A stretch of 6,840 bases of DNA from Myxococcota bacterium (GTDB taxonomy: Bacteria > Myxococcota_C > UBA6777): positions 1 to 6,840 of the forward strand of contig JAKLKB010000205.1 of the NCBI GenBank assembly GCA_023150835.1. Direction: 5' to 3'. This document shows, piece by piece, positions 6,154 through 6,378 of this stretch. The first letter of the stretch is position 1. Every line of letters starts with the position of its first letter. The position numbers and the translations under genes were made by a program. Below the pieces are notes generated by a model. That model was not told where the DNA came from. It saw only the letters and a program-made list of their open reading frames with translations, and ran no database searches.

Positions 6154-6378
6154 CTGCTTCCCTACGCCGGTTCTAGCCGGTTCCCGTCCGAAACAACGAG
6201 ACCCTATCTCTGCGCGTGACGCCTGATCGAGTGAAAGCGATCGACGCAGGCTGCGCCAGATAGGCAGGTTCGAGGGCTCCTCGGATGTAGCGGCTCGCTT
6301 TACACAAACGCTTTTGAACAAGCGTTTGCTTCGTGCAACAATCCGATCTCAGGGGCTTTTTGGCCCCGCACCCAGCAG
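6154..6378 (-). ncRNA. TPP (THI-element) riboswitch, expanded, controlling thiC
   Basis: Reading the minus strand, P1 is CUGCU (6378-6374) with AGCAG (6158-6154), and P2 is GGGU (6373-6370) with GCCC (6277-6274). P3 is GGGGC-CAAAAA-GCCCC (6367-6352), followed by the conserved UGAGA (6351-6347). A long P3a is closed by UCGGAU (6346-6341) and AUCCGA (6286-6281), and contains a 9-bp hairpin at 6328-6305. P4 is GAACCUG (6271-6265) facing GUAGGGA (6165-6159). P5 is CCGG-CUAGAA-CCGG (6180-6167), followed by the J5/4 CG. These are the conserved parts of the TPP aptamer in the right order. The oddity is about 80 nt (6264-6181) between the 5' strand of P4 and P5, where the family normally has two or three bases. 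This extra block folds into two stems, CCUAUCU/AGAUAGG (6264-6258 with 6209-6203) and UCUCGU/ACGGGA (6201-6196 with 6187-6182). Whether it still binds TPP is open. The position upstream of thiC supports the call. Confidence 0.82.

Follow-up and report, generated by a model that had tools for sequence, protein, structure and literature searches.

The thiC locus and its leader

The window analysed here, by which we mean the whole 6,840-nt stretch of a Myxococcota contig, carries on its minus strand the thiamine gene thiC (HMP-P synthase; 3926-5992; PF01964, E 1.8e-183), the likely start of which is the ATG at 5992, six bases past the sequence AAGGAG. Located 162 nt upstream of thiC, on the same strand, is a TPP aptamer (6378-6154 from P1 to P1, insert included) that was delineated by sequence, folding and a column/pair score. 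An NhaA-type Na+/H+ antiporter gene (329-1594; PF06965, E 6.7e-58) has the same orientation as thiC. The window also contains an alpha-amylase-like ORF (1798-3837) with two tandem repeats, one of 15 bp (2564-2671), which reads (QHTEPHHTE)n, and one of 21 bp (3385-3673; 13.8 copies, 97%), which reads LLLKRSS/P, falls towards the N-terminus of the ORF and may lie upstream of its true start. In addition, a dispersed repeat of approximately 117 bp is found at 6634-6751 and 3676-3918. More than 30 copies (88-98% identity) are present in the genome, often adjoining a second related unit, and with its ends (TTACGCAGTT/AACTGCGTAA and a GTAGGGGCGG..CCGCCC palindrome) the repeat resembles a MITE or an element of the REP type.

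The leader is preceded by a sigma-70-like promoter, TTTACA-17-TACAAT (6417-6389, minus strand; 10/12 consensus matches), the sole promoter-like site in 941 bases, where 0.4 would be expected. Helix P1 starts about 10 nt past the -10 hexamer, so that the RNA start should be at or just before P1. A plain minimum-free-energy fold of a longer stretch paired UCCCUACA with GUAGGGA; this pairing was dismissed, UCCCUACA being part of the promoter and hence unlikely to be transcribed.

The aptamer contains helices P1 to P5 in the correct order, as indicated by sequence, folding and the column/pair score, and the placement of all its parts on the minus strand in the initial annotation is borne out. P1 is formed by CUGCU (6378-6374) and AGCAG (6158-6154), and P2 by GGGU (6373-6370) and GCCC (6277-6274). 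The P3 hairpin (6367-6352; GGGGC 6367-6363, GCCCC 6356-6352) is followed by UGAGA (6351-6347), which lies between P3 and P2 and corresponds to J3-2, the T-loop (U39-A43) that serves as pyrimidine sensor; together with the 5' strand of P2 these parts make up the block 6373-6347. A second block (6277-6265) comprises the 3' strand of P2, GAACC, the 5' strand of P4 and, at 6265, G60 (numbering after PMC3764141). P4 pairs CCU (6268-6266) with AGG (6163-6161), with U59-A80 at 6266/6163, and P5 pairs CCGG (6180-6177) with CCGG (6170-6167) around the loop CUAGAA. The 3' block (6182-6154) comprises the A61-A62 equivalents (6182-6181), P5, C77-G78-U79 (CGU, 6166-6164) and the 3' strands of P4 and P1, and CGUAGGGA is present in this part. 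The residues found at the pyrophosphate in the TPP riboswitch, namely U59-A80 in P4 together with G60, C77 and G78 (PMC3764141), are thus all accounted for. By sequence alone the P5 loop also contains the UNRN-type motif (UAGA) through which L5 docks on P3 (PMC3764141).

Between UGAGA and the 3' strand of P2 lies P3a (6346-6281, 66 nt; sequence and folding), a stem that is optional in TPP aptamers, 552 of 907 having it (PMC2258182). Here it constitutes a second enlargement of the aptamer, with a long hairpin of its own (AAACGCUU/AAGCGUUU). P3a, the promoter and the expression platform described below are additions to the initial annotation.

The insertion in J4-5

The 5' strand of P4 and P5 are separated by 84 nt (6264-6181), a spacing that is 2 nt in ordinary aptamers. 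The net gain is 82 rather than 84 nt, as the two adenines at 6182-6181 can take the place of A61-U62, and the insert proper therefore extends from 6264 to 6183, between G60 and the A61 equivalent. Two stems of its own, which had been proposed from the outset, are predicted by folding both in the window and in the sister genome considered below: hairpin A (6264-6203), closed by CCUAUCU/AGAUAGG, and hairpin B (6201-6182; UCUCGUU/GACGGGA), which has six pairs if A6182 serves as A61. When thiC leaders were aligned to a covariance model, the 5' strand of J4-5 was 85 nt long in the window and 3 nt (68 of 70) or 2 nt (2 of 70) elsewhere, in agreement with the view of the initial annotation that this junction is short in ordinary aptamers. 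Likewise, in a pattern search of fetched loci the gap between GAACCTG and CGNAGGGA was 15-17 nt in 60 of 62 TPP aptamers, and 98 nt solely in the remaining two, those of the window and the sister genome. A61 is invariant in 33 ordinary aptamers; here it must come from beyond the insert.

No other insert-bearing TPP aptamer was found in 386 genomes with two patterns that required unaltered GAACCTG and GCGTAGGGAAG and covered gaps of 25-55 and 69-99 nt. Four further pattern matches were attributed to chance, as none of the four had UGAGA or P3 upstream. The insert contains no RNA family known to Rfam, plasmid records gave no match to the leader, and no published report of an insert in the J4-5 of a TPP riboswitch was found among the open-access papers searched. 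A mobile element or repeat was considered as the source of the insert and rejected, since the insert is single-copy in the genome and gives short chance matches only.

Searches with the Rfam model RF00059 gave no match in the whole window at E 1 and none in the genome at E 10. A 311-base piece yielded a misaligned hit of 13.4 bits, against a gathering cut-off of 54.3 bits, which is a detection threshold rather than a property of the RNA, and the aptamer parts are nonetheless present. Rfam likewise reports no TPP riboswitch in the sister genome, and one in each of three other genomes of the phylum. Real riboswitches that score low and carry insertions at unusual positions are on record (PMC2258182, Barrick and Breaker). 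A covariance model of our own, built from 33 ordinary TPP aptamers, sees the two halves of the aptamer apart (3' half, 15 bits; 5' half with a compact P4-P5, 2.7 bits). When the insert was excised, the column/pair score was 62, within the range of real TPP aptamers scored by leave-one-out (60-100), with 300 shuffled sequences at or below -98 and the compact P4-P5 form at -44. For 70 independent leaders, placed on the model by automatic alignment, this score ranged from -66 to 89. This wide spread arises because automatic alignment often misplaces real leaders, so that the score is a rough one, showing the good fit of the excised form but not where the lower limit lies. Judged from its sequence, the leader is filed as a variant of the TPP riboswitch and not as an ordinary member, because a J4-5 5' strand of 85 nt departs from the short strand that characterizes the class.

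Comparison with relatives

The closest comparison is with a single genome of the same genus (G001), so that it concerns two species in total. This genome carries the same insert at the same position. At fourfold degenerate sites of thiC the two species differ at 50 of 345 positions (14.5%), whereas the aptamer core, including the block 6373-6347, shows no change in 76 nt (P 7e-6 against the fourfold rate); the promoter hexamers are also unchanged. Two changes were found in P3a, one of which disrupts a pair. The insert has nine, all of them transitions and all confined to a 32-nt apical stretch of hairpin A (6253-6222), a clustering with P 0.0012. No change was seen in the remaining 52 nt, which make up the base of the insert and hairpin B (P 3e-4, for a subset picked post hoc). 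The fold of the insert is kept in the sister species no better than by random transitions, and the apical pairing is neither supported nor contradicted by the changes.

In three other genomes of the phylum an ordinary TPP aptamer is located directly upstream of thiC. The closest full-length ThiC elsewhere is that of the metagenome-assembled genome Co_bin.308 (L063; 74% identity). Its thiC leader has the same P1-P3 and 3' flank sequence (GCUGGGUGCGGGGCCAA and CCGGCGUAGGGAAGCAG) but, unlike that of the window, an ordinary GAACCUGAUCCGGGUCAUGCCGGCGUAGGGA without insert, and on sequence grounds it shows the insert-free state. Against members of its own family (L039, L041 and L044), the window ThiC is 79% identical in the catalytic part and only 41-49% in the N-terminal part; against the L063 protein it is 74% identical over the whole length, and the leader flanks are also L063-like. 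Horizontal transfer or replacement of thiC together with its leader is a possible explanation of these sequence relationships. Elsewhere, four TPP-like thiC leaders scored low, at 17-29 bits (L104:1836-1956, L069:1779-1881, L109:1809-1908 and L071:1755-1875). The P5 loop has grown to 13-19 nt in L104, L069 and L071, and core letters of P4/P5 are altered in L069 and L104; these four elements are possibly variant or decayed aptamers.

Predicted expression platform and interpretation of the insertion

Downstream of the aptamer, folding predicts two helices that are mutually exclusive in both species. The first is an anti-aptamer hairpin (6168-6097, minus strand; arms 6168-6145 and 6117-6097), which would correspond to the ON state and has a predicted energy of -27.5 kcal/mol (z -2.5) in the window and -28.9 kcal/mol (z -3.1) in the sister species. 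The second pairs an anti-Shine-Dalgarno strand, GCUCUCUUUG (6108-6099), itself within the anti-aptamer arm, with CAAAGGAGC (6006-5998), which contains the Shine-Dalgarno sequence AAGGAG (6004-5999), and would represent the OFF state. When the aptamer was held closed, the Shine-Dalgarno helix formed unforced in the folding of both leaders, and the predicted probability that the Shine-Dalgarno sequence is unpaired was 0.03/0.01 in the OFF state and 0.47/0.41 in the ON state (window/sister species). In the sister species C replaces U6100 and G replaces A6005, so that a U-A pair of the Shine-Dalgarno helix becomes C-G; the same change turns the anti-aptamer pair G6165-U6100 into G-C. This is a single compensatory event, and the strength of the Shine-Dalgarno helix alone is not rare for its composition (P 0.085). 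Equilibrium folding of the full leader favours non-aptamer folds by about 20 kcal/mol, and switching would therefore have to be co-transcriptional. The spacer is C-rich (0.38 C, 0.19 G), which would also suit Rho-dependent termination.

We consider it probable that the leader is a working translational OFF-switch for thiC that responds to TPP and carries a tolerated, structured 82-nt insertion in J4-5. The observations behind this reading come from the sequence: the aptamer parts, the insert and its position, the occurrence in two species, the unchanged core, the promoter-like site and the Shine-Dalgarno sequence with its ATG. Our current working model is that, when TPP is bound, P1 and P4 would be closed and GCUCUCUUUG would pair with the Shine-Dalgarno strand, turning thiC off, and that in the absence of TPP the 3' strand of the aptamer would pair with 6117-6097, freeing the Shine-Dalgarno sequence and turning thiC on. 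The insert would form two hairpins that leave a four-way junction of P4, hairpin A, hairpin B and P5. TPP binding would be retained because the insert projects outward, leaving G60, A61, C77 and G78 to converge on the pyrophosphate as before. Of the options raised by the initial annotation, a tolerated insertion thus fits best; we presume that its sequence is otherwise neutral and that selection maintains its base for the sake of folding and not of sensing.

The insert adjoins the pyrophosphate/Mg2+ pocket, in a junction that is 2-3 nt long in all 70 other leaders, and it is conceivable that it broke TPP binding and that the leader, as its 13.4 bits in Rfam might also suggest, persists without function. 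Such degeneration, which the initial annotation had also put forward, appears unlikely, as none of the 76 core nucleotides has changed against 14.5% at fourfold sites, the promoter is intact and the switchable expression platform contains a compensatory change. With regard to the origin of the insert, the initial annotation was supported in its reading of a TPP riboswitch with an insertion of about 80 nt between P4 and P5, but not in its suggestion that this insertion is a partial duplication of the 3' half of the aptamer. That suggestion, and the related one of a remnant between two fused tandem aptamers, drew on the resemblance of GAACCUGCC..GGCGCAG (GGCGUAG in the sister species) to GAACCGGC..GGCGUAG; GAACC is also present on both sides of the insert, and a weak Rfam alignment treats the insert as a 5' half. 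When compared with shuffled controls, however, the resemblance gave uncorrected P values of 0.18 (window) and 0.03 (sister species) against the true P4-P5 segment and of 0.05 and 0.61, respectively, against a canonical aptamer, and the covariance model run in local mode assigns none of its 5'-half positions to the insert, so that an origin of either kind seems quite unlikely.

We regard as less credible again the proposal of a two-input leader, in which the insert would be a second sensor or binding module, for a ligand, an RNA or a protein, that is placed in the pyrophosphate junction and modulates TPP sensing or the expression of thiC; were it true, thiC would depend on TPP and another signal via one merged aptamer. 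The unchanged base and hairpin B, albeit a post hoc subset, and the clustering of the changes would agree with such a module, but the same conservation is expected if the junction fold alone matters, the insert matches no known RNA family, and its fast-evolving apical part looks unconstrained, since random transitions preserve the structure at least as well. Finally, a compact P4-P5 directly after GAACCUG (CC-UAUCU-GG-CGCAG), which would close the aptamer and leave no insertion, is extremely improbable: although this arrangement, together with the 5' half (6383-6239), can be aligned to the covariance model, its scores are the low ones given above, and it lacks CGUAGGGA and a closing P1 strand, P5-CGUAGGGAAGCAG, the partner of P1, lying downstream; the compact form does not replace the inserted one.

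The working switch with a tolerated insertion, if correct, bears on one of the best-studied riboswitches, as the 5' strand of J4-5 sits beside the pyrophosphate and Mg2+. If TPP is still bound, an unbroken strand at this point is not essential; this would narrow the set of features that the pocket needs, and J4-5 would be a natural site for building in other domains. The case also illustrates that annotation can lose real riboswitches, Rfam being blind to the leaders of both species.

With the TPP aptamer or THI element as defined by RF00059, the leader shares the P1-P5 order, UGAGA, G60, C77-G78, the UNRN-type L5, GUAGGGA and the location upstream of thiC, yet it differs in the 82-nt insert between G60 and A61 and in its score below the Rfam cut-off. 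It resembles the variable insertions described for other riboswitches (PMC2258182) in that stable stem-loops leave the core unchanged and covariance-model scores are low, although the usual site of such insertions in TPP riboswitches is P3a and here it is J4-5. Finally, in the thiC riboswitch of E. coli an anti-P1 stem (ON) excludes P1 and the RBS-sequestering stem (OFF) (PMC5234074). The predicted platform of the window follows the same logic, but its layout was derived solely from folding and a single compensatory pair, and its anti-aptamer helix, unlike that of E. coli, also uses the strands of P4 and P5.
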